From Selenomonadales bacterium (GTDB lineage: Bacteria; Bacillota; UBA994): 64,000 nucleotides of DNA. The position numbers were made by a program, and so were the translations under genes. Of this stretch, positions 40,308-53,739 are shown one piece after another. The stretch is taken from NCBI GenBank assembly GCA_018335585.1, contig JAGXRZ010000020.1, forward strand, positions 186,001 to 250,000. Direction: 5' to 3'. Below the pieces are notes generated by a model. The model was given only the letters and a program-made list of their open reading frames with translations. It had not been told where the DNA came from and did not search any database. Numbering within the stretch: the first letter of the stretch is position 1; every line of letters begins with the position of its first letter.

Positions 40308-40937
40308 TTGAAGGCTGCGATTTTCGACCTTGACGGCACTTTGTGGGATGCCACCACTGTGGCATTGCCTGCATTTCGAAGTGTGTTGGCTCGACTGGAG
40401 CTTCCTGCTGTGTCCGACGACCGCTTAACTTCGACGCTTGGCTACCCTATCCCAGAAATTTGGCAAATGCTCCTGCCGCCAGAAGAACTGCACCGTGCGC
40501 ATGAGGCAGACAAGCTTATGGAAGAGACTGAGGCCGAGCTCTTAGCTGCAGGCATGGGGAAACCATTCCCCGCGGTTCTAGAAACGCTCTCCGTCATTCG
40601 ACAGCGCGGGTTCCTCACGTTTATTTGCAGCAACTGCCAGCCAAACTACCTCGAAATTACACCTAATAGACTGGGGGTCGCCCACCTTTTCGATGGGCGT
40701 TACTGCGCAGGGCAATATCAGGGACTTACAAAAGTAGATATTGTTAAGCTCATTAAAGAGAGCCACGGCATTACTAGCGGCTTTATGATTGGCGACCGCT
40801 TTCACGACGTAGAGGCCGGGCTAGCCAATGGCCTTACTGCTGTCGGGTGCCTATTTGGCACCGGGACGCGCGAGGAGCTTAAGCGCGCCCATTACCTGAT
40901 TAATGGCTTCAGTGAGTTACAGCGCATCGTAACTTAA
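40308..40937 (+). CDS. HAD superfamily hydrolase
   Basis: A 209-residue HAD phosphatase-like protein. Motif I is FDLDGTLWD at the N-terminus, motif II SNCQ around residue 107, and motif IV GDRFHDVEAGLANG. A helical cap lies between motifs I and II. The substrate is unknown. TTG at 40308 is preferred because AAGGAG lies 8 bp upstream; an ATG at 40302 is only 2 bp from that SD. The 3' end overlaps the convergent CoA activase gene by 4 bp. Confidence 0.88.
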   Translation: MKAAIFDLDGTLWDATTVALPAFRSVLARLELPAVSDDRLTSTLGYPIPEIWQMLLPPEELHRAHEADKLMEETEAELLAAGMGKPFPAVLETLSVIRQRGFLTFICSNCQPNYLEITPNRLGVAHLFDGRYCAGQYQGLTKVDIVKLIKESHGITSGFMIGDRFHDVEAGLANGLTAVGCLFGTGTREELKRAHYLINGFSELQRIVT

Positions 40938-41902
40938 TTGCCGGCTTTTTCGCGCTTGCTGCCGAAGCGGCCGCATCTGTCACCCCAATAGGCTACGGCC
41001 GTTCTATCCATGCGGAACTCGACCACTTCACAGAGGTGGCCGCAGCCGCCGCAGGTGGAAGTGGCGGTCTGGCAGTGTGCCTCTGCCACGGCAAAGCCGC
41101 GAAAAGCGCTCGCCCCTTTAACCCCTTGGCTCAAGAAGCAGGCACCTAGTGCGCCCATAACATTGTAGTGGGGCGGCACAATTATGGGTAGCTGCAAGGC
41201 ATCTTCAAAGGCCTTTCTGATGCCGACGTTAGCTGCGACTCCCCCTTGGAAAACTACGGGGGACACGATACTCTTGCCTTTCCCCACGTTGTTGAGATAG
41301 TTTCGCACTAACGCTTCGCAGAGTCCGGCCACTATATCTGCCAGCGAGTGGCCGACTTGCTGCTTATGAATCATGTCAGACTCCGCAAACACCGCACACC
41401 TACCCGCAATGCGGGTAGGTTTTGTCGCTTGTAGCGCGAGCCGGCCTAAGTCGGCGATGTCTAGGCCTAGACGGCTAGCCTGCCTGTCCAAAAATGAGCC
41501 TGTCCCGGCTGCGCACACGGTGTTCATGGCAAAGTCGGTGACGACACCGTGGTTAAGCACGATGATTTTGGAGTCCTGCCCGCCGATTTCAATAATCGTG
41601 CGCACATCCGGCACAGCCCGCAAGGTAGCTGCGGCATGTGCCGTGATTTCATTCTTGACGATATCCGCCCCTACTAATGCCCGGGTTAACAGGCGACCGC
41701 TGCCGGTAGCCCCGACACCGCGGACAGTTGCATCCTGCGGCAGCACAAGCGCGACATCCCGCAGTCCCTTCTGCACGGCGGCAATCGGCTGCCCCTGCGT
41801 CGGGAGGTAGCCGACCGCTAAGACCTGCGATGCATCATCGATAACAGCCAAGTTCGTGCTGACAGAGCCTACATCTATGCCTATGTAAACGCTTTTTCCC
41901 AC
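40934..41902 (-). CDS. Acyl-CoA dehydratase activase (HgdC/BcrA family ATPase)
   Basis: A 322-residue ASKHA-fold ATPase of the BadF/BadG/BcrA family. Such activases use ATP to drive an electron from a 4Fe-4S cluster into 2-hydroxyacyl-CoA dehydratases. GIDVGSVSTNLAVID, EIGGQDSKII, the cluster cysteine in NTVCAAGTGSFLD, and GRCAVFAESDMIHKQQ are present. A C-terminal cysteine-rich motif (CGGCGHLC) is an additional possible metal site. The GTG start has AAGGAGG upstream. It overlaps the next gene of the cassette by 22 bp. The substrate is unknown. Confidence 0.9.
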   Translation of the reverse strand: MGKSVYIGIDVGSVSTNLAVIDDASQVLAVGYLPTQGQPIAAVQKGLRDVALVLPQDATVRGVGATGSGRLLTRALVGADIVKNEITAHAAATLRAVPDVRTIIEIGGQDSKIIVLNHGVVTDFAMNTVCAAGTGSFLDRQASRLGLDIADLGRLALQATKPTRIAGRCAVFAESDMIHKQQVGHSLADIVAGLCEALVRNYLNNVGKGKSIVSPVVFQGGVAANVGIRKAFEDALQLPIIVPPHYNVMGALGACFLSQGVKGASAFRGFAVAEAHCQTATSTCGGCGHLCEVVEFRMDRTAVAYWGDRCGRFGSKREKAGN

Positions 41903-42996
41903 TGATTTTGCCTCCTTGGTGCACTCTTTCGCACCCGCAGCATGTCCACAAAGGCTTCGAGCCTCGTCTGCAGCCCCGCTTCGCCGGAATGCTCGTCAAA
42001 TACGAGGGTCATAATCGGTACGCCTAGTTGTCGGCTCACGGCAGGCAGAATGCTCTGCGCCACAATCTCCGGCATGCAGGTGAGCGGCATTACCTGAATT
42101 ATGCCATCGACGCCTTGCTCACCGTACAGCACACTGTTGCCGACTGTCTCAAGACCGTGGCCACCCACAAACCCACGCAGGTAAGGACGTGCTTTGCTCT
42201 TTAGCTTCCGCTCCTTCTGCAGGGCACAAGGGCTCGGAATTAGGTGCGAGAAGACCCAGTCGCTTACACAGATGCTTCGCTCTACTGCCACACCCATATC
42301 GCCGAGGCGCTTTTCTAAGTTAAGGTTTACGCTCGGCTCGAGAACCACGTAGATCTCCCCCACTATCGCTACGCGCAGCGGTACCGGAGCGCCCCGTCGC
42401 TCTAGGGCACCTAATAACTCATATACCTGCAGCTTAGCCCGTCTTAAGTGCGCGACATCGCGCACCTGTCCAAAGAGATGCAGGGCTGTCTCCCACACTG
42501 CATCGCAGCTCGTGGGTGTTATCTGCATGGCGCGCAGCTCACTTAGCTCGCGCTCTACCTTGTCGAGGGCTTGGCAGAGCTCCAAAGCAAAACGGAGGTT
42601 TCGCACGACCTCGGTTGGCGTGGCTCCGTTGGTTAGAGGGGCAATAATGCGGCCGATTTCCCATACGCCCTTTTCCGGCGGCTCTAAGACTAAGAGTCTC
42701 AGGTCAGTTCCCAGTTCGCGCAGTATCTCGCGCTGTGAGGCAGCGTAGAAGCCTAGTCGGCAGGGGCCTGTCCCACCCGCCATCACCGCCGTGTCGGCCC
42801 CGCTCGCCGCTGCCTCCAGGAAGTTGCCCACATTCACTTTAAAGGGCAGACATACACACTCCGGGGAGTATTTGGCCCCGAGAGCCAAGGTATGGCTGCT
42901 TACAGGAGGAGGCACGACGACGGTGTGGCCGAAGTTCTCAAGGAGCGCTCGTAGCACGAGCCACAGCGTCCCCATGTGTGGGAACGTTACGCGCAT
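41881..42996 (-). CDS. Acyl-CoA dehydratase activase-related protein (DUF2229/HgdB-like)
   Basis: A 371-residue protein related to the dehydratase component (HgdB-like/DUF2229). Cysteines likely to hold an Fe-S cluster occur in ECVCLPFKVNVGNF, GGTGPCRLGFY and VMPLTCMPEIV. The C-terminus carries DEHSGEAGLQTRLEAFVDM, nearly identical to the next gene, so the two are paralogues. GGGGAGGAG precedes the ATG. It overlaps its neighbours on both sides. This three-gene set occurs in anaerobes without an assigned substrate. Confidence 0.82.
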   Translation of the reverse strand: MRVTFPHMGTLWLVLRALLENFGHTVVVPPPVSSHTLALGAKYSPECVCLPFKVNVGNFLEAAASGADTAVMAGGTGPCRLGFYAASQREILRELGTDLRLLVLEPPEKGVWEIGRIIAPLTNGATPTEVVRNLRFALELCQALDKVERELSELRAMQITPTSCDAVWETALHLFGQVRDVAHLRRAKLQVYELLGALERRGAPVPLRVAIVGEIYVVLEPSVNLNLEKRLGDMGVAVERSICVSDWVFSHLIPSPCALQKERKLKSKARPYLRGFVGGHGLETVGNSVLYGEQGVDGIIQVMPLTCMPEIVAQSILPAVSRQLGVPIMTLVFDEHSGEAGLQTRLEAFVDMLRVRKSAPRRQNQWEKAFT

Positions 42997-43960
42997 AAAT
43001 ACTCCTCCCCTTAATCATGTCCACGAAGGCCTCGAGGCGTGTCACCAGCCCGGCTTCCCCGCTATGCTCATCAATGTTGAGTAGCATATGAGGAAACAGA
43101 GCCCGCCGCGCTGCCCTCCCCAGTAAATCGCCCACAAGCGATTCCAACCCGCACCCAAAGGAGGAGAGCAAAATCAGCCCATCGACTTCATGCGGGTGGT
43201 TAAGATAGTACATGCCTGCTCCTAGCACTCGCTTACTAAGCGTCCAATAGAGCTTCTTTCCTCCCATGTAGGCTAGCCCGCAAGCCACCTTTTCGACAGG
43301 TAACATTTCGGCCGTACAGACATCTACCTCCAGCGCGCGCAGGTGGTCAGCTATGTCCATGGAAAGCACTGGGTCGTACACGTTGTAGGCGTGGCCGAGT
43401 AACGCGACGCGCAGACGTCTGCCTGGCAAGCGGCGAGCTTTTTGTCCGTGAAAGGCCTCCTCCGGCGTTATTCCTGTTAGGAGTAACCGCTCCAAGCGTC
43501 GCTCTTCCTGCAGCGAACGACTAAAGGCACGCATTGCCTGCGGTGTGCTTAAAGCGAAAAACTTCCTTGCCGCCAACAGAGGTGACAGCCAGGCAAGCGG
43601 CCCCTTTCGCAAGTCAATGTCAGGCGAAAAGAGCGCCGGCAAGCGAGCGTGGCTGTGCCTAAGCATGTCCGGCAAGCCCATTAGTTTCGGACAAATATAT
43701 GCCCCACGCTCAATGCTGACGTATCTTGGCACTAGAACACAATCCACTTGGTCTCTAAGTTCAAGCACATGTCCAAAGTACACCTTAACCGGGGCACAAA
43801 CTTCGTCTACTGTCACGGCTGCCCCTTGGTTTAGGATGCGCTCCGTGGTGGGGGGGGAGAGAATCACCCTAATCCCAAGTTCTTGGAAGAAACGCCGCCA
43901 ATGCGGGAAGTGCAGGTAGTACAACAAGGCGCGAGGAATTCCAACGGATGCCAAGCTCAA
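42938..43960 (-). CDS. Acyl-CoA dehydratase-related protein (HgdB/CoA protein activase-like)
   Basis: A 340-residue paralogue of the downstream gene: ASVGIPRALLYYLHFPHWRRF at the N-terminus (shown in part), VDEVCAPVKVYFGHVLEL, SSFGCGLESLVGDLL and the C-terminal DEHSGEAGLVTRLEAFVDM. Cysteines in these segments may bind 4Fe-4S. The TTG at 43960 is the start, with GGGGGTGA just upstream; a second TTG 6 bp further in is also possible. It overlaps the next gene by 59 bp, which indicates tight coupling. Confidence 0.8.
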   Translation of the reverse strand: MSLASVGIPRALLYYLHFPHWRRFFQELGIRVILSPPTTERILNQGAAVTVDEVCAPVKVYFGHVLELRDQVDCVLVPRYVSIERGAYICPKLMGLPDMLRHSHARLPALFSPDIDLRKGPLAWLSPLLAARKFFALSTPQAMRAFSRSLQEERRLERLLLTGITPEEAFHGQKARRLPGRRLRVALLGHAYNVYDPVLSMDIADHLRALEVDVCTAEMLPVEKVACGLAYMGGKKLYWTLSKRVLGAGMYYLNHPHEVDGLILLSSFGCGLESLVGDLLGRAARRALFPHMLLNIDEHSGEAGLVTRLEAFVDMIKGRSIYARNVPTHGDAVARATSAP

Positions 43961-44020
43961 TGCTTCACCCCCAAGTACTCCCCTAGCCTGCCCTTTTCGC
44001 CGGAAGTTCATACCAGCCGA

Positions 44021-44747: not shown

Positions 44748-44765
44748 GCCGCTGCGCTCAGCGGC
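44748..44765 (-). terminator. Terminator at the end of the spore-coat operon
   Basis: Minus-strand GCCGCTG-AGCG-CAGCGGC, a 7-bp perfect GC-rich stem, followed by TTTTATATTTT. The stop codon of the CotS-like gene (44760-44758) lies inside the hairpin. Confidence 0.85.
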
Positions 44766-45843
44766 GGGGGAAAGGTCTCCAAGTAAGGGGTGTAGTTAGC
44801 GATGGCGGTGAAGGTGGAGGCGGTGAAAGCTCAGGCGACGCATCAGCCTCTACCGTGACTAGCTCGACATCGTTCTTGGGTGTAACCACCTGCACCTTGT
44901 CGCGGCGAATCTCTGTCAGGTGCTCCTCCAGCCAATCTAGCCATTCGCCCTTGCGTTTTGACAAAGCCAGCACTCTCTCCCCGTCAAAAGTGGCGTTGCC
45001 GCGGGTGACTTCGTCTAGTTTCTCAGCCCATTCGTGGGGGTAACACAGATAAGCCAAGAGCATTTCACGCTCAAGTGCGCTAAGTGGGCGAGCTGCTTGA
45101 TAGGCGGACAAGAAGTGCAGCCCTGGCTCATTGCCAAGCCCGGCCTCGAAAAGCAGCTCCCCCACGTTAATAAAGCTATGGTCTACGCATAGGTGCGCCT
45201 CATTGAGGCACACGGCATGTGTCTCGCGCATATAGGCAAATTGTCCGAAGGATGCGTGCGCCAAAGACAACACGCGCTCACCGGCAAGGCTCTCTGTGTA
45301 CCTCTCTGCCCGAGTCAGCGCTTCTTCTGCTTGCCGCAGCAACTCGCGCAGTGCTTCGCCCCTTGTGCCCTTGCGGTAGCGATGTGTTGCCAAACGCCAG
45401 TAAGCGGCTCGCTCGCGCGCCGCAGTCAACCAATCGCTGGCCAGACACGTCGTCGGTGGCGGTTGCACCGCGAGCACGGCGGGGGAAGCGCGGTGCAGGT
45501 GCGCTATAAGGCGTCCCACAGCTCTAACCTCGAAGAAGTTGCTGGCATCGCACGCTGTGCCCGGCATGTACTGAGTCAGGTACACCCACCTGCCGTCGAC
45601 CTCCACGGCATATGCTCCATCCTGAGTCCTGATGAACTGCCCAAAATCGCGCAAGCCCAACTCGGCTAACCGATCTAGACTGGCGCCGGCCCAACTAAGC
45701 TCCAAGAGCCCGCCGAGCGAGTAGCGCACGGCCGCCAACCCGCTGTCAGTCGTCAGGCAATCGACTCCGTCTACACTTAAGAGCGAAGGAGGTAGGCCGT
45801 ATAGCGCGGCAACATTGGCGGCGTTCGTAGTCAACCAGCTCAT
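44758..45843 (-). CDS. CotS/YutH-family spore coat-associated kinase-like protein
   Basis: A 361-residue protein of the CotS/YutH/CotI coat family, which has an aminoglycoside-phosphotransferase-like fold. LAHASFGQFAYM is in the position of the catalytic loop but lacks the usual HGD, while the DHSFINVGELLFEAGL segment resembles the IDFD part. Activity as a kinase is therefore doubtful. The C-terminus ends in a proline-rich tail (PELSPPPPSPPSL). The ATG at 45843 has GGGAGG 6 bp upstream. Last gene of the coat operon, 33 bp after the GNAT gene. Confidence 0.8.
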   Translation of the reverse strand: MSWLTTNAANVAALYGLPPSLLSVDGVDCLTTDSGLAAVRYSLGGLLELSWAGASLDRLAELGLRDFGQFIRTQDGAYAVEVDGRWVYLTQYMPGTACDASNFFEVRAVGRLIAHLHRASPAVLAVQPPPTTCLASDWLTAARERAAYWRLATHRYRKGTRGEALRELLRQAEEALTRAERYTESLAGERVLSLAHASFGQFAYMRETHAVCLNEAHLCVDHSFINVGELLFEAGLGNEPGLHFLSAYQAARPLSALEREMLLAYLCYPHEWAEKLDEVTRGNATFDGERVLALSKRKGEWLDWLEEHLTEIRRDKVQVVTPKNDVELVTVEADASPELSPPPPSPPSLTTPLTWRPFPRR

Positions 45844-45876
45844 ACATGGCCTCCCTTCGCGGAGCATCAATCTAAT

Positions 45877-46362
45877 CTATTCATGTCCGCGCTTCTGTAA
45901 AACCACATCCTCGCCCCTGCACAAATCGCCAAAGGTCTTAAGCGATAGCACCACTTTGCCGTTGTCACGCACGAATACGGCGTAACCGAGCAGCCCGCAG
46001 CCAAACGCGACCTTCAGGCTTGGTACGTTGTCGGCTGCTATTTGCACGTGAAAACTGCCAAGCTCAGCAACGGCCCGGCGCAGAAGCTCCTTGCCCAGCC
46101 CGCGACTTCGGGTGCTGCGTCTGACGACGGCTAGGGAGCAGTCCTTGCCATAATCCTTACCTACCAGTACGCCTGTTAAGCGCTTGTTCTCAGTGGCGGC
46201 TAGGACGAGCGTTCCCGGCTCCGTAAGGTCTAGCTTAGTTAGGGCACGGAGCTTAGCACTCGTTTCGCGCGTGATGTGTTTGTCTTTGTGCTGCCTGACG
46301 AAGGCGACAATGCGCTTCTTCCAGCGCGGCCATTTCTCTCGGCTAATCTTAAATACTGACAC
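45877..46362 (-). CDS. GNAT family N-acetyltransferase in the coat ATP-grasp operon
   Basis: A 161-residue GNAT-fold protein. The acyl-CoA loop is RSTRSRGLGKELLRRAV, preceded by GVLVGKDYGKDCSLAVV, and followed by QIAADNVPSLKVAFGCGLLGY. The GTG at 46362 has GGGGGA 7 bp upstream and lies within the end of the ATP-grasp gene upstream (14-bp overlap). GNATs in amidoligase operons are proposed to modify or transfer amino acids. The substrate here is unknown. Confidence 0.85.
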   Translation of the reverse strand: MSVFKISREKWPRWKKRIVAFVRQHKDKHITRETSAKLRALTKLDLTEPGTLVLAATENKRLTGVLVGKDYGKDCSLAVVRRSTRSRGLGKELLRRAVAELGSFHVQIAADNVPSLKVAFGCGLLGYAVFVRDNGKVVLSLKTFGDLCRGEDVVLQKRGHE

Positions 46363-47677
46363 CGCTCTGTCCCCCACTGCTTTGGTAACCGGCGAGATAC
46401 CGGCTAAACTCCACTAGCCTCCGCAGCGACTTGGCCCTGATGGCAGGTTCGTCAAACTTCATCGGTTTGGCGTTAGCCTCAAAAAAATAGCACTTCTTTG
46501 CCTCGGTAATGCCGATGTCCATAGACATTTCGCCAAAAAGACTGCCTACGCCGCGTTCTATGGCCGGTGCCACCTTGAGGGCCAGTGCTTCGATTTCCTC
46601 GCGCAGGCCTTGTGGTCGACCAGCGCTTTCGCCAAAGGCCTCCTTCAATACCGTGTCCAGAGGTGCAATATGCCCTCCATTCGGCACATGTGTAGTGATA
46701 CCCCCCGGCGCCGCTACGCGCACGCCTATGCCTGTGACTTCCCACTGGCCTTGATTGTTTTTTTGCACGAGCACCCGAACATCGAAAATGGCGCCGCGAA
46801 GCTTCGCTAGGCGCAGCCCTTCCTGCAGCAAATAGCGGCTCCCCGCACGCCGTGCGACAAAGGCACGGAGCAGCGCGTCGGTGCCGGTGTACGAAGCATG
46901 CCGATACTTTGCCCCGTCCTTGTAGCTAAGAACTAGTTTTTGGCCTTTACGCCATACGCGCATGATGCCCCGTCCCGCAAAGGTGTCTTGCGGCTTAAGA
47001 TACACCATGTCGTGCTTTCGCAGCATGTCGACTAAGTCTTTCGGCTCCCGGTAGAGACACGTCTCAGGAACAAAAGGTGTAAGCTCAGGCTGTTTAGCGA
47101 GGAGGCCGTACAGCTCCCACTTGTTGAGAAACTTTGGGTTAAACAGCGCCACCGCCGGTTGCAGGCGCTTTATCTGCTGCTTGAAGCGCATTACAGGCAG
47201 TGACACCTCGCTCTTCCTATCAGGCACGCGGTTGTAGACGACATCAGGCAGAGGGTATTCCCGTGGCACCCACCGACCTCCTACGCGTGCATAGCCAAGC
47301 ACTCGCCTTTGCGCGAAATCTACGTCTTCGACGGCAAACACAAAGGCTACGGCCCCCATTTCTCCGGCCATCCGTGTTAAAGCGGTGTAGTTCTCGCGCC
47401 GGCCGCGCAGCCCGCGAAACCCCGGTAGAGTGCCGGGGCGTTTGTTCGTCATAATACCTACATATGGCCCGATGCGCATGCCGTAAGCGGCGCGCCACAC
47501 GCCTACGCGCTGCTTGTCGCGCAGACCAAGCAGGTGCGCTGCCCGCTCTGTGAGCTCTAGCGCGCTCTTTCCCTCCGCAAGCCTAACTCCCCCTGATACT
47601 TCCGCCACGCCTCCAGAAAGGCGCGTGGCTTGCGCCCGCTGCTGCTCACTCGCTATGATTACTCGTGCGTAGTGCAT
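46349..47677 (-). CDS. YheC/YheD-family coat-associated ATP-grasp protein (paralogue 1)
   Basis: A 442-residue protein. The N-terminal about 75 residues form a small YheC-type domain that ends in MRIGPYVGIMT. The ATP-grasp core has VVYNRVPDR, NPKFLNKWELY, the ATP lysine in VYLKPQDTFAGRGIMRV, FDVRVLVQKN, TTHVPNGGHI and the metal-binding end FFEANAKPM. Homologues YheC/YheD of B. subtilis are spore coat proteins; the reaction is expected to be an ATP-dependent carboxylate-amine ligation but is unproven. The ATG at 47677 has AGGAGGTG upstream; a longer frame is rejected. Confidence 0.88.
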   Translation of the reverse strand: MHYARVIIASEQQRAQATRLSGGVAEVSGGVRLAEGKSALELTERAAHLLGLRDKQRVGVWRAAYGMRIGPYVGIMTNKRPGTLPGFRGLRGRRENYTALTRMAGEMGAVAFVFAVEDVDFAQRRVLGYARVGGRWVPREYPLPDVVYNRVPDRKSEVSLPVMRFKQQIKRLQPAVALFNPKFLNKWELYGLLAKQPELTPFVPETCLYREPKDLVDMLRKHDMVYLKPQDTFAGRGIMRVWRKGQKLVLSYKDGAKYRHASYTGTDALLRAFVARRAGSRYLLQEGLRLAKLRGAIFDVRVLVQKNNQGQWEVTGIGVRVAAPGGITTHVPNGGHIAPLDTVLKEAFGESAGRPQGLREEIEALALKVAPAIERGVGSLFGEMSMDIGITEAKKCYFFEANAKPMKFDEPAIRAKSLRRLVEFSRYLAGYQSSGGQSGVSI

Positions 47678-47687
47678 ATTGCACCTC

Positions 47688-49025
47688 CTACCTGATTTCG
47701 CCAAATCCAGCCGCGAAATGGGCGTAAGCGCACACGCAATGGTATGAATACCACCCGTCCCTGCGGGCCCAGATAGGCGCAAACACCATTCGGCCTGGTT
47801 TGGCATTAACTTCAAAGAGATACACCTCGCCGTTTGGCGTAACGCCTAGGTCGAGCCCTAATTCCCCGAGCCTTACATTCATGGCCTTCTCTAGAGCCAA
47901 GGCCACTTCCTTGCCGGCCTGAATGATGCGGCCGTAAACAAGCTGCTCGTTACCGCCGAAAACTTCCTTTAGTACCCGCAGCAGCGGGTAGACGCGGCCC
48001 CCGTTATGGACATGAGTCGTGATGGCACCCGATACCGCAACTTTGGCCGCAGGCCCTATCGCTACCCATTCCCCGTAGCCGTTCCGCTGCATGGTGACGC
48101 GAACATCAAAAGTGCGCCCCCGGTACTTGGCTAGGGTTAAACCTTGCTGTACTAGGTATTCACGGCGATGCCTGGCAGCGAGGAGGTCGGCTGCCGCCGC
48201 CTCCCACGTAGCATGCCGGTGCAAGATATTGGTGTGGCCGTGGCGATAGGCCACCACAAAACCGCCGAGCTTACTCTGGTAGACACGCATGATGCCGGCT
48301 CCCAAACTTCCCCCTACCGGCTTGACGTAGGCATGCTGATGCTTTTTGAGTATACTCGCGACATCGGACACGCCGCGCCAGGGCCTAGTTTCGGGCAGGA
48401 GGTGGTTGACCTCGCCTGAGCGGGTAAGCCAACGGTGCACGTGCCATTTGTTAAAGAACATGGGGTTAAAGAGGTATGTGTCTCGGACCGAGCTAAGTTG
48501 CCTGAGAAAGCTCCGGTAATGCGCGGTGCGCTCCAAGCCGCGGTTAGGAATACGGTTGTAGATGACGTCAGGTAGCGGCAGAGTAATACTCCTCACGCCG
48601 TGACCATAGTCTACCGTGCCCCGCACCAAGCGCCTCCCCCAATCGACGTCGCGCGAAGTGAACGCATAGACAAAGGCCCGCACCCTAGACGCGGCCCGGC
48701 ACAGACCACGGTACATGGGGTTACGTCCAACACTTTGCGACGAGCCAAAGGGGACAGTCAAGAGACCGATGAGCGGTCCGAAGTGGAGCTCATTCTCGCC
48801 TCTGTCGTAGACAAGCTTGCCGTTATAACCTGCCGGGTAGTGCAACCTCATCCTTAAGAGCGGCGACAGCGAGTACTCCTCCGCCAGGTCTGCTTTGGCC
48901 AAGACCACTGCCTTAACAGTCCTGCTGCCAAAACGCACTTTCACGTGGCTGCCGGTCGCAAGTCCCATTTCCGCAATCTTACAGGGCCGCAACGCCACCG
49001 CACATCGCCCGTTTACATCACGCAC
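47688..49025 (-). CDS. YheC/YheD-family coat-associated ATP-grasp protein (paralogue 2)
   Basis: A 445-residue paralogue of the neighbours. The N-terminal domain ends in LHFGPLIGLLT. The core has VIYNRIPNR, NPMFFNKWHVH, AYVKPVGGSLGAGIMRV, FDVRVTMQRN, TTHVHNGGRVYP and LFEVNAKPGR, so ATP and metal ligands look complete. The GTG start at 49025 lies inside the end of paralogue 3 (13-bp overlap), with AGGTGA 6 bp upstream. It is followed by paralogue 1 after 10 bp. Confidence 0.88.
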   Translation of the reverse strand: MRDVNGRCAVALRPCKIAEMGLATGSHVKVRFGSRTVKAVVLAKADLAEEYSLSPLLRMRLHYPAGYNGKLVYDRGENELHFGPLIGLLTVPFGSSQSVGRNPMYRGLCRAASRVRAFVYAFTSRDVDWGRRLVRGTVDYGHGVRSITLPLPDVIYNRIPNRGLERTAHYRSFLRQLSSVRDTYLFNPMFFNKWHVHRWLTRSGEVNHLLPETRPWRGVSDVASILKKHQHAYVKPVGGSLGAGIMRVYQSKLGGFVVAYRHGHTNILHRHATWEAAAADLLAARHRREYLVQQGLTLAKYRGRTFDVRVTMQRNGYGEWVAIGPAAKVAVSGAITTHVHNGGRVYPLLRVLKEVFGGNEQLVYGRIIQAGKEVALALEKAMNVRLGELGLDLGVTPNGEVYLFEVNAKPGRMVFAPIWARRDGWYSYHCVCAYAHFAAGFGEIR

Positions 49026-50134
49026 GGCTCTTCACCTCGCCTCGACTGACCTAAGTACCTGCAGTACTGCATTGGCCGCAAAACACTCAGGCGCCTTAAG
49101 TCCATCGCCTTAATCCTAAGAAAGACCTTGCGCCCCGGCTTGCTGTTGGCTTCAATAAGCCACACCTTGCCGTCCCTATCTACTCCTAAATCCAAGCCTA
49201 GCTCTCCAAATCGCCCTAGCTCTCGGTCGAGTGCGCTCGGGATCGCCAGACACAGGCTCTGAATCTTAGCATAGATAGCCTCCCACTGCTCGGGAAACGC
49301 AAGCCGCAGCAAAGCCTCGGTACGCATAGCTCTGCCGCCGCCGTGCAGGTTCGACGTGATGCTCCCCCTCTGCCCTATGCGAGCCGCTGTACCCGTGAGC
49401 GCCCACTTGCCCGTTTCGTCCTTCTGCACTACCGCGCGAACATCAAATGTACTGCCATGATAGTGGTTCAGGTAAAGCCCCTGCTGCACCAAGAGCCTGT
49501 GCCGCTGACTTTCTCGCTTGGCTAGGCTAAGCGCCACAGCGGCTGAGTGTACCAGTGCCGAGTATGGTCGGTTAGCACTGTCGCGGCCGCGGCACGCTAG
49601 GCCTGAACCGGTAGCGCGAATTTGCATAACACCTTTGCCTTGGCTCCCCATGTCCGGCTTAATAAAGACATAGCGATGTCTATCTAACATGTGCTTAAGA
49701 ACCGCGACGCCGCTAAGCCTTTTTGTGTCGGGCACATGGGGGGCGAGATCCGGGCACTTGCGTACTGACCGATACACCTCCCACTTCCCCTTTAAGGCAC
49801 GGCCAAAGAAGACTACACCTCTCTGCCGCTTGAGCCTTCGCGCGGCGGCAAACAAGATGTTTGCCATATGCCCGCGCGGCGGGAAAAGACGGTCGTAGAC
49901 CACGTCCGGCAAGGGGAAGCGCTGGTGACTCCACCCGCCGAGGCTAGGATTATAGGTATATCCCGCAACCGTCCGCGCTTGCCAATCGACATCTAGGGGA
50001 CAAAAGACAAAGGCGCGCACGTTTAAGCCCCTCGCCGCGCGAATCAGCTGCTTAAAGTAAAGCCCTTCGCTAAAAGGTAACCCCGTCCCCCCCCTCCTCG
50101 ACGACATAATGCCCACTAAGATTCTGCCGCTCAT
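49013..50134 (-). CDS. YheC/YheD-family coat-associated ATP-grasp protein (paralogue 3, short)
   Basis: A 373-residue paralogue that begins directly at the GPxxGI-like strand (RILVGIMSSRRGGTGLPF) and lacks the 75-100-residue N-terminal domain of its neighbours. The core is intact: VVYDRLFPPR, GKWEVYRSV, VFIKPDMGSQGKGVMQI, FDVRAVVQKD, SNLHGGGRAM and LIEANSKPGRKVF. The ATG at 50134 has AGAGGTGA upstream; an ATG 15 bp earlier is less likely. It lies 18 bp after the amidoligase gene. Confidence 0.88.
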   Translation of the reverse strand: MSGRILVGIMSSRRGGTGLPFSEGLYFKQLIRAARGLNVRAFVFCPLDVDWQARTVAGYTYNPSLGGWSHQRFPLPDVVYDRLFPPRGHMANILFAAARRLKRQRGVVFFGRALKGKWEVYRSVRKCPDLAPHVPDTKRLSGVAVLKHMLDRHRYVFIKPDMGSQGKGVMQIRATGSGLACRGRDSANRPYSALVHSAAVALSLAKRESQRHRLLVQQGLYLNHYHGSTFDVRAVVQKDETGKWALTGTAARIGQRGSITSNLHGGGRAMRTEALLRLAFPEQWEAIYAKIQSLCLAIPSALDRELGRFGELGLDLGVDRDGKVWLIEANSKPGRKVFLRIKAMDLRRLSVLRPMQYCRYLGQSRRGEEPCVM

Positions 50135-50152
50135 TTTGTCACCTCTCACTTC

Positions 50153-51568
50153 TTACCCGCGGTAGATTCTCGCGCGCGGTATCTGAAGACCCCAGGTCTT
50201 GCGGATGTCAATTTTCTCAACCCATGTCTCTTGTTTTTGGATCATTTCTTCGAGCACTTTCATGCCCTGCTCATACAGACCAAACGTCGGCGTAGCAGCT
50301 AGGTCACTCCAAAGCGCGGCGAAGTGCGGCATAAAGTACTCGCGGTTGGCGGTGACAAACGCCTGCTGGGCCTCAGCCCTTAGGAAGACATCACGCGCTA
50401 GTACATGGTATTCGCTGGCAATAACTTTGGCCAGACAAAGCGCGGCCCTGCTAACTTCGGGCGAGACTAGCCAACTTGCCGGCGTGCGATACTCAAAGCC
50501 ACCATGAGGCTTCAGGCGAAAGTCTCCGAGAAAGCCGTATTTTTCCCGACGACGCCGCGCTGAAGTCGGTTCTTCAATCAACAGCAGAGGCACGGCGAGG
50601 TAGTTATCTAGAGCTCGCAGCAGCTGTCCGGAGAGCAGCACGCCCTTGAAATGAATGTGGCCGCCTACAGGAAACTGATCGAAAGGCATACTGCCAGCCC
50701 GCCACTCGATGTTAGAGAAAGGTGCTAGACGCAGTGCTTTGCGCATGACCATGCGGATATTGTCTACTACCTGTAGTGGCGAGTAACTAGGTGCCGGCCG
50801 GATCTCCGCTAAAGGGTATCCGGACACAGGACCCCGCACGAAGCGTGCATCGCACCCCACTGCGCCTTCTCTGGGGAAGAAGCGCGAGGCCATAACTAGG
50901 CGGCGCGTGCGGCAGTCACGCAGCATAAACTCAGGGTCGGCGCCTACGCTCACTACCTTGTCAAGGTAATTAGGATTGGCCTTCTGAAAGATAGGTAGAG
51001 TCTGCCGGAGCTCGGCTTCGCGTATGCGCTGCCTGATGTGCTCCGCATAGGCCTCGACCAAGCGAGTAGTTACTCTGGGGGCTGCGTCAATGCCCAACAC
51101 CTTGAGTTGACCGCGGCTGTCTACTCCCACCTCTACCACCCCAAAATCGAGACGCAGCGTGTGCAAAGCCCTTGTGGCTAGGACTGACCCGTCGCGCGCT
51201 TCCTTAGAGCCCTGTGATGATACTTCCAGTGCCGCGCTCTGACCTATCTCTCTGCGCAACACCCTAACTACCTGCAAATCAAAGAGGGAGTACCTATACC
51301 GTCGATACCACGTGCTCTTGGCAGTAGCCACCGGCACGGAGCCCTTGGCCCACATGTCGCGCGCCTGCGGGATGTTGCGCAGGGCTGCCGCCTTGTTCAG
51401 TACGACACTTACCTTGGCGTCAAGTTCACCGTCCCGTTCGCTGCCCCAGCGAATGAGCACTTGTGGCAAGTCGTGCTGCTCGAGTGCGGGCTGCGCAGTG
51501 AGTGCCGGTAGTTCACTCTCTAAAGCACGGCAAGCGGAGGGGTCGTGATGGAGGATTACGGCCGCCAT
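50153..51568 (-). CDS. Degenerate ATP-grasp fused to PhiEco32-type COOH-NH2 amidoligase
   Basis: A 471-residue protein. Residues about 205-471 match the PhiEco32-like amidoligase-type 2 family, a glutamate-cysteine-ligase/GS fold: VGADPEFMLRDC, AVGCDARF, PLAEIRPAPSYSP, GGHIHFKG and FEYRTPASWLV. Residues 1 to about 200 resemble pieces of an ATP-grasp: SVVLNKAAALRNI, RYSLFDLQVVRVLRRE and LRLDFGVVEVGVDSRG, but the metal-binding end is changed to LGIDAAPR and the usual NGG loop is missing, so this half is probably inactive. GGAGGGGAAGC precedes the ATG. It lies between two ATP-grasp genes. Confidence 0.85.
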   Translation of the reverse strand: MAAVILHHDPSACRALESELPALTAQPALEQHDLPQVLIRWGSERDGELDAKVSVVLNKAAALRNIPQARDMWAKGSVPVATAKSTWYRRYRYSLFDLQVVRVLRREIGQSAALEVSSQGSKEARDGSVLATRALHTLRLDFGVVEVGVDSRGQLKVLGIDAAPRVTTRLVEAYAEHIRQRIREAELRQTLPIFQKANPNYLDKVVSVGADPEFMLRDCRTRRLVMASRFFPREGAVGCDARFVRGPVSGYPLAEIRPAPSYSPLQVVDNIRMVMRKALRLAPFSNIEWRAGSMPFDQFPVGGHIHFKGVLLSGQLLRALDNYLAVPLLLIEEPTSARRRREKYGFLGDFRLKPHGGFEYRTPASWLVSPEVSRAALCLAKVIASEYHVLARDVFLRAEAQQAFVTANREYFMPHFAALWSDLAATPTFGLYEQGMKVLEEMIQKQETWVEKIDIRKTWGLQIPRARIYRG

Positions 51569-51579
51569 GCTTCCCCTCC

Positions 51580-52929
51580 TTACTGCAGCCCACGGCTGCG
51601 CAGGAAGCTTACCAAACGTTGTACCGAGCGCGAAATCCGCTGCGGGCGGCCCTCACCCGTCTCTCGGCCGGGGCGTGAGTTAGCCTCGATTACCCATATC
51701 CTAGCTGCCGCATCTATCCCTAAGTCAACGCCCATCTCGGCTAGCTCAAACCCCACCTCGCTTTCAATGACTTCCGCGGTGGCTTTAGCTATGCGCTTTA
51801 GCCGCTGCATAATAGCGCGTGAGTTCACTCTCCCCCCAAAGGCCAACGCTATCGCGCGCCTAGGATGCAGGATGTGCCCTCCGTCCGCTACGTTAGAGAC
51901 TACGTTGCCGGGTTCCGCGACGCGCGCTACCATGCTTTGGATTACCCACTTGTTGCGGATAGTCTTCTGTAGCAGGACGCGCACATCAAACGTCGCCCCG
52001 CCGATGCGGGCTAGGCGCAGTCCCCGCTGCACGACATACTGCCCGTTCTGCATCAGGCGTGACGCGAAGGCGAGCACGGGCGCGACCCCTTTGGTGCGTC
52101 CTCGCTTGTCGGGGAGATTGAGGCGCGTGAAGCGGTAGTTGTAGCCTGTGCCTGCCCGCGCAACTCGAAAGATGCCCGCGCCGTGACTGCCGTGCGCGGG
52201 CTTGACGTAGACCACGCCGTAACGCTTAAGACATTTCTCCAGTACATTGACACTAGAGAGCTCCTCCGTTTGTGGGAGGTAGCCCTTGGTCGAGGCATGC
52301 TTCTCTAGAATGCGATGAACATCCCACTTGTTAAAAAATGAGCGATTATAATATTTTACCGGGCAGGCTAGCAAGCGCTCTTTGGCTCGCACAAAGGACG
52401 GAGCATTCTCTGCAGTGCGGCTTGAAACGCGGTCGTAGACGACATCAGGCAAGGGGCACTTGACCCGCCTGAGCACGTTACCCGTCCATACCCACCCTCG
52501 CACGGCGCGCTCCTGCCAGTTGATGTCTTCCGGGGCAAAGGCATACGCCAACATACCTTTCCTGCGCGCTTGGCGCACACACCAGCGAATTATCCCTGTC
52601 GACGGGCCAAACAGCCCACCGCGTGAGCGTTTCCCAAGCACCCCAAGTACCGGGCCAAACCTGACCACACCTTGACGTGTGTCACGCCACATCGCTAACG
52701 TATCGCCCTCGGTGAGCCTAAGTTCCTGCAGCAAGTCTCGACTCAGCAACACCCGTCGCGGGCGACACACTTCCGTACTTGCCTTTACTGACACCGACGC
52801 CACAGACTGCCCGGCACGCAATGTTACGGTCGAGTCAGGCTTTAGCTGCGAAGTTAACGGCAGAGGCAATACTACTTCCCGGCCTGCATCCTCCTCGGGG
52901 CGAACCGCGAGCACAACCCTCGTTGCCAT
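51580..52929 (-). CDS. YheC/YheD-family coat-associated ATP-grasp protein (paralogue 4, first gene of operon)
   Basis: A 449-residue protein with a longer N-terminal region (about 1-100; barrel-like, with VLLSRDLLQELRLTEGDTLAM) ending in VRFGPVLGVL. The core has VVYDRVSSR, NRSFFNKWDVH, VYVKPAHGSHGAGIFRV, FDVRVLLQKT, SNVADGGHILHP and VIEANSRPGRE. The ATG has GGGGGG 7 bp upstream. A terminator at 52995-53016 isolates the operon from cotE, so it needs its own promoter; a weak sigma-K-like match lies at 52961-52989. Confidence 0.88.
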   Translation of the reverse strand: MATRVVLAVRPEEDAGREVVLPLPLTSQLKPDSTVTLRAGQSVASVSVKASTEVCRPRRVLLSRDLLQELRLTEGDTLAMWRDTRQGVVRFGPVLGVLGKRSRGGLFGPSTGIIRWCVRQARRKGMLAYAFAPEDINWQERAVRGWVWTGNVLRRVKCPLPDVVYDRVSSRTAENAPSFVRAKERLLACPVKYYNRSFFNKWDVHRILEKHASTKGYLPQTEELSSVNVLEKCLKRYGVVYVKPAHGSHGAGIFRVARAGTGYNYRFTRLNLPDKRGRTKGVAPVLAFASRLMQNGQYVVQRGLRLARIGGATFDVRVLLQKTIRNKWVIQSMVARVAEPGNVVSNVADGGHILHPRRAIALAFGGRVNSRAIMQRLKRIAKATAEVIESEVGFELAEMGVDLGIDAAARIWVIEANSRPGRETGEGRPQRISRSVQRLVSFLRSRGLQ

Positions 52930-52960: not shown

Positions 52961-52989
52961 CAGCATATGTAGTGCGTAGTTTTTGGGTA
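52961..52989 (-). promoter_or_regulatory. Weak sigma-K-like promoter of the coat ATP-grasp operon
   Basis: Minus-strand TACC (52989-52986), a 16-bp spacer and CATATGCTG (52969-52961). The sigma-K consensus is mACm, 16-17 bp, CATAnnnTA; one base in each box differs. It is the only promoter-like site I found between the cotE terminator and the first gene. Confidence 0.3.
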
Positions 52990-52994
52990 CACAA

Positions 52995-53016
52995 AATGCC
53001 GCCTTGCGGCGGCATT
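52995..53016 (-). terminator. Rho-independent terminator after cotE
   Basis: Minus-strand AATGCCGCC-GCAA-GGCGGCATT, a 9-bp perfect stem with a GNRA-like loop, followed by TTGTG. It lies 43 bp after the cotE stop and separates cotE from the ATP-grasp operon. Confidence 0.8.
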
Positions 53017-53059: not shown

Positions 53060-53620
53060 CTAAAGTTCTTCCTCGATTAGCTCGTCGTCTTCTTCGAATT
53101 CGAGAAACTCCTCATCGTCGACAAAGTCTAGGTCCTTCTTCTCGTCAACCGCAGAGGGTGGCTCGTATACCCTAACCCACAGCCTAGCTTCACCGACAAC
53201 CTCCGCATAGAATTCCACCGCTACCGTTGCCTCCACCGTCACATGCCTGAGATGAATACTTGCGATGCGAGGCTCTTTGACTACCGTCGCTTGGACACAC
53301 TCGTTCACACCTAGGCGCACGCCCTCAAGGTCGATAACCGGCAGGTGCTCGGAGTAGCACACCGTCTTTCTCTCCACCACCGTCTCACTGCCGCCGTTAT
53401 AGGCATACCATACGTGTAAGTCGTACTGCCCGGTTACCTCGACGGAATGCCGCTCCGGCGACGCCACAAAGCTGTGATTCATCACGCGATAACCGAGGAT
53501 ACCATCCGGCAGGTGCGTAGCTTGCAGAGTGAAAGTCTGCTTAAACCGTTTTTGCCCCTTAGCGCAGGTCGTGCGTGCGATAATGTCTCTGAGTCCCCCG
53601 GTCTCTTGGCGATTCCACAT
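53060..53620 (-). CDS. cotE: Outer spore coat protein CotE family
   Basis: A 186-residue CotE homologue. In B. subtilis CotE is the morphogenetic protein that organises the outer coat. Family sequence: REIITK-like RDIIARTTCAKGQKRFK, ILGYRVMNHSF, VEVTGQYDLHVWYAYNGGSETVVERKT (in part), VNECVQATVVKEP and VTVEATVAVEFYAEVVGE. The C-terminus is a highly acidic tail (about 28 residues, nearly half D or E), also typical. The ATG at 53620 has a G-rich SD at 7 bp. It precedes the coat ATP-grasp operon but has its own terminator. Confidence 0.9.
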   Translation of the reverse strand: MWNRQETGGLRDIIARTTCAKGQKRFKQTFTLQATHLPDGILGYRVMNHSFVASPERHSVEVTGQYDLHVWYAYNGGSETVVERKTVCYSEHLPVIDLEGVRLGVNECVQATVVKEPRIASIHLRHVTVEATVAVEFYAEVVGEARLWVRVYEPPSAVDEKKDLDFVDDEEFLEFEEDDELIEEEL

Positions 53621-53739
53621 AATCGTCCCCCCCTTCATTCACCCGCCTCTGGGCGATAGTGCATGACGCGATAGAACCTTCGCTGCCATGCTGCATCATA
53701 TGAAGGGGACGCGTGAGTGGTGCATGCGAGGGCTACCGC

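Follow-up and report, generated by a model that had tools for sequence, protein, structure and literature searches.

A conserved operon of ATP-grasp and amidoligase genes beside cotE, with a probable role in modifying the outer spore coat

The window, by which we mean the whole 64-kb stretch of DNA analysed here, comes from a 2.34 Mb draft genome in which SpoIVA is present, and it also contains sigE, sigG, spoIIGA-like and spoIIR-like genes together with GerA-type germination genes. Downstream of cotE, seven ORFs occupy positions 44758-52929 of its minus strand in the order AG1, AML, AG3, AG4, AG5, GNAT, CotS-like. Successive genes are spaced by 11, 3, -13, 10, -29 and 6 bp (with AG5 starting at ATG 47677), which confirms the tight packing reported in the first-pass annotation, with gaps of -29 to 11 bp. 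The features are as follows:

53695..53721, minus strand: predicted sigma-K-type promoter of cotE, ACC-N16-CATATGAT
53060..53638, minus strand: cotE, outer coat morphogenetic protein with an acidic C-terminal tail (PF10628, 8e-31), its own transcription unit beside the operon
52998..53010, minus strand: terminator-like stem-loop between cotE and the operon (stem-loop/T-run scan; weak evidence taken alone)
52962..52988, minus strand: predicted sigma-K-type promoter of the operon, ACC-N16-CATATGCT
51580..52929, minus strand: AG1, YheC/D ATP-grasp with N-terminal domain (PF14398, 1.2e-68; catalytic K, R, D, E, N present)
50153..51568, minus strand: AML, degenerate ATP-grasp half joined to an intact GS/GCS-like COOH-NH2 ligase (PF14395, 3.8e-101)
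49013..50149, minus strand: AG3, short YheC/D ATP-grasp without the N-terminal domain (PF14398, 1.2e-77)
47688..49025, minus strand: AG4, YheC/D ATP-grasp (PF14398, 2.1e-70; own orthologue clade)
46349..47677, minus strand: AG5, YheC/D ATP-grasp (PF14398, 2.7e-72; own orthologue clade)
45877..46377, minus strand: GNAT acetyltransferase-like protein (Pfam GNAT just under cut-off; conserved in the class)
44758..45870, minus strand: CotS-like predicted pseudokinase (CotS model, 38.8 bits; C-terminal [IVL]xWxxFP motif)
44748..44765, minus strand: terminator-like stem-loop at the operon end (stem-loop/T-run scan)

Terminators had been thought to set this unit apart. Stem-loops do lie at 53010-52998 and 44765-44748, but the scan returned fewer such sites than the shuffle mean (5 observed vs 10.3), so that terminators alone prove little, and we discarded them as evidence for a single unit. 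That the operon is more than a chance grouping follows from the recurrence of the same gene order elsewhere in the class: further genera of the window's family (f1), and a second family (f2) of that class, also have cotE-AG1-AML-AG3-AG4-AG5-GNAT-CotS-like. Next to the operon, at 40934-44011 of the window, three genes resembling a 2-hydroxyacyl-CoA dehydratase activator and two subunits were recognised by eye; genes of this type are also kept beside the operon in L059-L061.

The presence of four ATP-grasp ligases, proposed earlier, is well borne out. AG1, AG3, AG4 and AG5 match PF14398 over the whole domain at 232-261 bits, far above the cut-off of 26.8, and the catalytic Lys, Arg, Asp, Glu and Asn are complete in all of them. 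For AG5, the ATG with a GGAGG-type site is the favoured start, a longer ORF from 47815 being less likely. Each of the four positions forms its own strongly supported clade spanning two families, and the four ATP-grasp positions of Thermincola likewise fall into separate, strongly supported clades. The four ATP-grasps have therefore been kept apart for a long time; judging by these trees and active sites, they are separate ancient orthologues that are probably all catalytically competent. Such separate retention of complete enzymes is compatible with the idea that each adds a different unit.

AML had been described as a fusion of an ATP-grasp and an amidoligase, a description that holds fully for the second half of the protein. 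The COOH-NH2 ligase domain (residues 208-461) matches PF14395 at 338 bits (cut-off 25) along the entire profile (1-254 of 254) and keeps the conserved acidic, histidine and arginine residues of this GS/GCS-fold family. The ATP-grasp-like half (residues 1 to about 205) is degenerate: its central part is deleted, the ATP-binding loop is lost and the catalytic Glu/Asn are replaced. Only residues 121-166 align to an ATP-grasp profile (hhalign E 1.5e-4, probability 52%), a weak similarity that falls around the last ATP-grasp motif. As far as sequence can tell, this half is a dead ATP-grasp scaffold for the GS-like ligase. An AF2 model of AML (pLDDT 95.9) retrieved by Foldseek both ATP-grasps (PsnB, the best structural neighbour, RimK and ArgX) and proteins of the GCS/GS fold (YbdK and glutamine synthetases), the match to YbdK 1r8g at 1.9e-5 placing the ligase in a GS/GCS-like fold. 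With AML, the operon is predicted to hold five ATP-dependent carboxylate-amine ligases with intact active-site residues. A natural fusion of AML with a YheC/D ATP-grasp in one protein occurs in G084 (L057:7567-10338). A tblastn search for a phage relative of full-length AML found none, and a phage origin of the full protein was set aside. In several lineages AML is adjoined by a secreted-looking peptidase of three AstE/AspA-M99 (M14-type) repeats (L064:2268-4850, L054:16825-19164 and others), a possible trimming enzyme.

These active sites bear on one rival explanation, namely that YheC/D and the amidoligase are mainly structural components of the coat whose enzyme activity is secondary. YheD of B. 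subtilis self-interacts and forms shells around the spore (PMC7911427), as such a role would have it. Nevertheless, the catalytic K, R, D, E and N are complete in 88 of the 90 ATP-grasp domains compared, that is, in every one not cut short (the other two are truncated), and many AML residues are invariant among 41 diverse homologues, which a purely structural protein would not need. We consider a mainly structural role very unlikely.

The last two genes are restricted to part of the operon's range. The GNAT-like protein scores just under the Pfam cut-offs (23.0 vs 23.6 and 20.4 vs 20.7 bits). For the CotS-like gene, what stands of the earlier claim is its place at the end of the operon and a distant similarity: the protein reaches 38.8 bits against the CotS model TIGR02906, far under the cut-off of 172.7, and the kinase HGD and DFD motifs are missing in six homologues. 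N223 and the W364/F367/P368 motif are invariant. The fold prediction was discarded, as a model with pLDDT 50 is too poor to judge the fold. At the C-terminus, after a variable linker, a conserved [IVL]xWxxFP is found (window 44761-45870), perhaps a docking motif.

When and where would these genes be expressed? Sigma-K sites combine an AC -35 element with a CATA-type -10 element that is common with sigma-E (PMC3789822), separated by a gap of 14-16 nt (PMC517825). Counting both strands of the 64-kb window, ACC-N16-CATANNNT matches twice, once before cotE and once before AG1, with 0.93 matches expected by chance anywhere in the window. Both sites agree with the published consensus (-35 AC, -10 CATAnnnT, correct spacing; PMC517825, PMC3789822). 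Across genomes, a looser AC-CATA form lies upstream of 20/26 cotE genes and of 9/12 first ATP-grasp genes after cotE, compared with 15/267 control genes, and a stricter form precedes 9/30 leading ATP-grasp genes vs 5/413 controls. The same site marks the start of ATP-grasp operons in families f17, f47 and f102. Directly before AML in Paenibacillaceae no sigma-K-type site was found, and the two operons of family f105 have a conserved CATATTAT -10 with no matching -35. We thus predict sigma-K-type, mother-cell-type promoters for cotE and the operon, the sigma assignment being drawn from the consensus only.

The distribution of the operon points the same way. In a survey of 249 Bacillota genomes, with counts not corrected for relatedness, AML occurs in 33, and all 33 encode SpoIVA and YheC/D; within Bacillota, therefore, the search for the set in non-sporulating genomes produced no AML genome without SpoIVA. 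Since SpoIVA is present in 215/249 genomes, this association alone is modest (p about 0.005), and YheC/D by themselves are not spore-specific. The link to CotE is far tighter. AML and CotE occur together in 21 genomes, in every case on the same contig and at most 6.6 kb apart (Fisher p about 2e-13 for co-occurrence, phylogeny uncorrected), and CotE lies beside the set in nearly every relative's contig with enough flank. Around this core, the arrangement varies between lineages. Thermincola-type genomes have two cotE genes, four ATP-grasps and then AML; in Alicyclobacillaceae cotE is followed by two ATP-grasps, AML, one or two further ATP-grasps and mutS; in Paenibacillaceae AML sits between cotE and mutS, followed by mutL. 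One Paenibacillus record lists an annotated CotE, then AML as 'hypothetical protein', then mutS, while at the corresponding site in Bacillus cotE is followed directly by mutS without AML.

Within the class, represented by 15 genomes, AML and YheC/D are found in 10/10 genomes with SpoIVA (one SpoIVA being cut by contig ends), and CotE in 9 of these 10 and in 0/5 of the others. Three genomes without SpoIVA (G242, G221 and G251, the last 72% complete) have neither AML nor YheC/D, nor does G199, which retains a 33-residue SpoIVA remnant. In G151 (L070), SpoIVA is in pieces, AML contains a stop and the ATP-grasps are broken. In the close relatives G151, G199, G242 and G221, sporulation seems to be disappearing or already gone, and the operon decays together with it.

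A different kind of evidence comes from a sister family in the same class, f105, in which two species (G249 and G250) have the operon with AML in two pieces 5.2-5.35 kb apart (L085:6992-13733 and L086:3608-10209). In both, the interruption lies in the same codon region, directly ahead of the catalytic GGHIH motif, in which the G and H residues are invariant or almost so across 41 AML homologues. The intervening element encodes a large serine recombinase with resolvase, recombinase and zinc-ribbon domains, and its ends carry short direct repeats (14 bp in one species, 10 bp in the other). Joining the flanks yields uninterrupted, in-frame proteins of 464 and 465 residues. Between the two species synonymous sites are saturated or nearly so, and dN values (0.29 and 0.18 for the AML halves, 0.28 for the recombinase) resemble those of neighbouring genes; the split arrangement is therefore old and both halves are under selection. 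We read this as the likely signature of a sporulation intervening element, with excision as the candidate mechanism. Together, the CotE linkage, the sigma-K-type promoters, the loss with SpoIVA and the split amidoligase strongly support the assignment of the operon to the spore coat and the mother cell, as made in the first-pass annotation.

Our preferred reading, which we hold to be probable, is that the operon is expressed late in the mother cell and modifies the outer spore coat through amide bonds formed with ATP; the inference of amide-linked chains or cross-links on the spore surface made earlier is in keeping with it. In the manner of RimK or tubulin ligases acting on their targets, the mother-cell ligases would attach amino acids or short peptides via amide bonds to carboxylates of coat proteins, or cross-link them, with each ATP-grasp taking a different step. 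The GNAT could cap or acylate the product, and the kinase-dead CotS-like protein might serve as an adaptor. As acceptor or docking site, the leading candidate would be the acidic C-terminal tail of CotE (107 bits against PF10628, cut-off 25). Three things favour CotE: it is the neighbour found most constantly, most copies compared have a strongly acidic tail, and in B. subtilis the charged CotE C-terminus governs CotH assembly (PMC4618286). It cannot be the sole substrate, since AML and YheC/D occur in about ten genomes of families f17 and f47 in which no CotE was detected, and the two f105 genomes have CotE 26 kb and >20 kb from the operon, respectively. A candidate divergent CotE beside the operon in f17 was rejected, as the neighbours are housekeeping genes by eye.

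Several observations concern CotE itself. Acidic tails cannot serve as proof of a substrate, for Bacillus has such tails without any amidoligase. Two tandem CotE paralogues, one with and one without an acidic tail, occur in L006, L008, L017, L074 and L075. Among non-Bacillus CotE proteins, the few with no amidoligase (L080-L082, a very small sample) have tails that are not or only weakly acidic. CotE homologues are also present in clostridial-type loci (L006, L008, L017 and others); a 2012 survey reported no CotE in clostridia (PMC3533761).

Two further alternatives concern the product. The ligases could cross-link coat proteins mutually (Glu/Asp to Lys), in the way of a transglutaminase driven by ATP. 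PsnB, which is structurally closest to the AML model, is a graspetide ligase that joins side chains, and CotE tails contain acidic runs with a few lysines nearby; yet the PsnB match stems from the dead ATP-grasp half, and we regard mutual cross-linking as quite unlikely. Alternatively, the mother cell might make a free peptide or polymer (of the teichuronopeptide, cyanophycin or gamma-peptide type) and deposit it on the coat, in which case CotE would mark only the locus and the time. Genes for an ATP-grasp, a COOH-NH2 ligase and a GNAT, when linked, were earlier predicted to build peptide-like products and are said to act serially in polymer or metabolite pathways (restated in PMC4431377), amidoligase operons without CotE exist, and the secreted-looking peptidase adjoins the amidoligase in several lineages. 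On the other hand, the operon has no recurring gene for an exporter, a precursor or amino-acid synthesis, and cotE synteny is its steadiest link, so a free polymer seems to us rather unlikely.

Coat-protein modification, the reading we prefer, can be taken further, to a system akin to the tubulin code. In the mother cell, five amide ligases would mark the acidic CotE tail and further coat proteins with amino acids or peptides, and one lineage would gate this activity through a sporulation-specific DNA excision that rebuilds the amidoligase gene. In this complete form the proposal is speculative and doubtful.

For about two decades, YheC and YheD have figured among the coat-associated B. subtilis proteins whose function is unknown. 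Their connection to CotE, to an amidoligase and to mother-cell-type promoters opens them to direct testing in the culturable Paenibacillus, Brevibacillus, Alicyclobacillus and Thermincola, and points to an ATP-driven modification or cross-linking of the spore coat distinct from transglutaminase and the coat kinases. A search of the open-access literature for CotE with amidoligase or ATP-grasp returned nothing relevant; relative to that literature, whose scope does not include Iyer et al. 2009, new here are the link of the operon to cotE, its conserved promoters, its loss along with sporulation, the dead ATP-grasp half of AML and the split gene.

Compared with known systems, AML has the same ligase domain, of GS/GCS-like fold, as the PhiEco32-like COOH-NH2 ligases (PF14395), but it is cellular, stands behind a dead ATP-grasp half and belongs to a sporulation operon. 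The operon's ATP-grasps are, by sequence, carboxylate-amine ligases with complete active sites like RimK, TTL and PsnB, which include structural neighbours of the AML model, yet similarity in sequence is weak (AG3 against TTL: 20.8 bits, Pfam cut-off 20.1). The last gene is distantly similar to the CotS/YutH/YsxE coat kinases (TIGR02906) while lying far under the cut-off and lacking the catalytic residues. The f105 element resembles known sporulation intervening elements, such as skin (sigK), SPbeta (spsM), gin (gerE), vfbin (spoVFB) and yin (yabG) (PMC10747680, PMC5595907), in its recombinase, short end repeats and in-frame rejoining halves, but it differs in being only 5.2-5.35 kb long with no phage genes recognised. 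AML is missing as a target from the published list (PMC10747680), and with the split gene a coat-modifying enzyme would join the few sporulation genes known to be interrupted by recombinase elements. The closest parallel is yheC-yheD of B. subtilis, of the same PF14398 family, for which mother-cell regulation (sigma-E/SpoIIID genes; PMC517825) and coat location (YheD coats the forespore; PMC7911427) are documented; no PF14395 amidoligase was found in the B. subtilis control genome, whereas here four paralogues share a single operon beside cotE.
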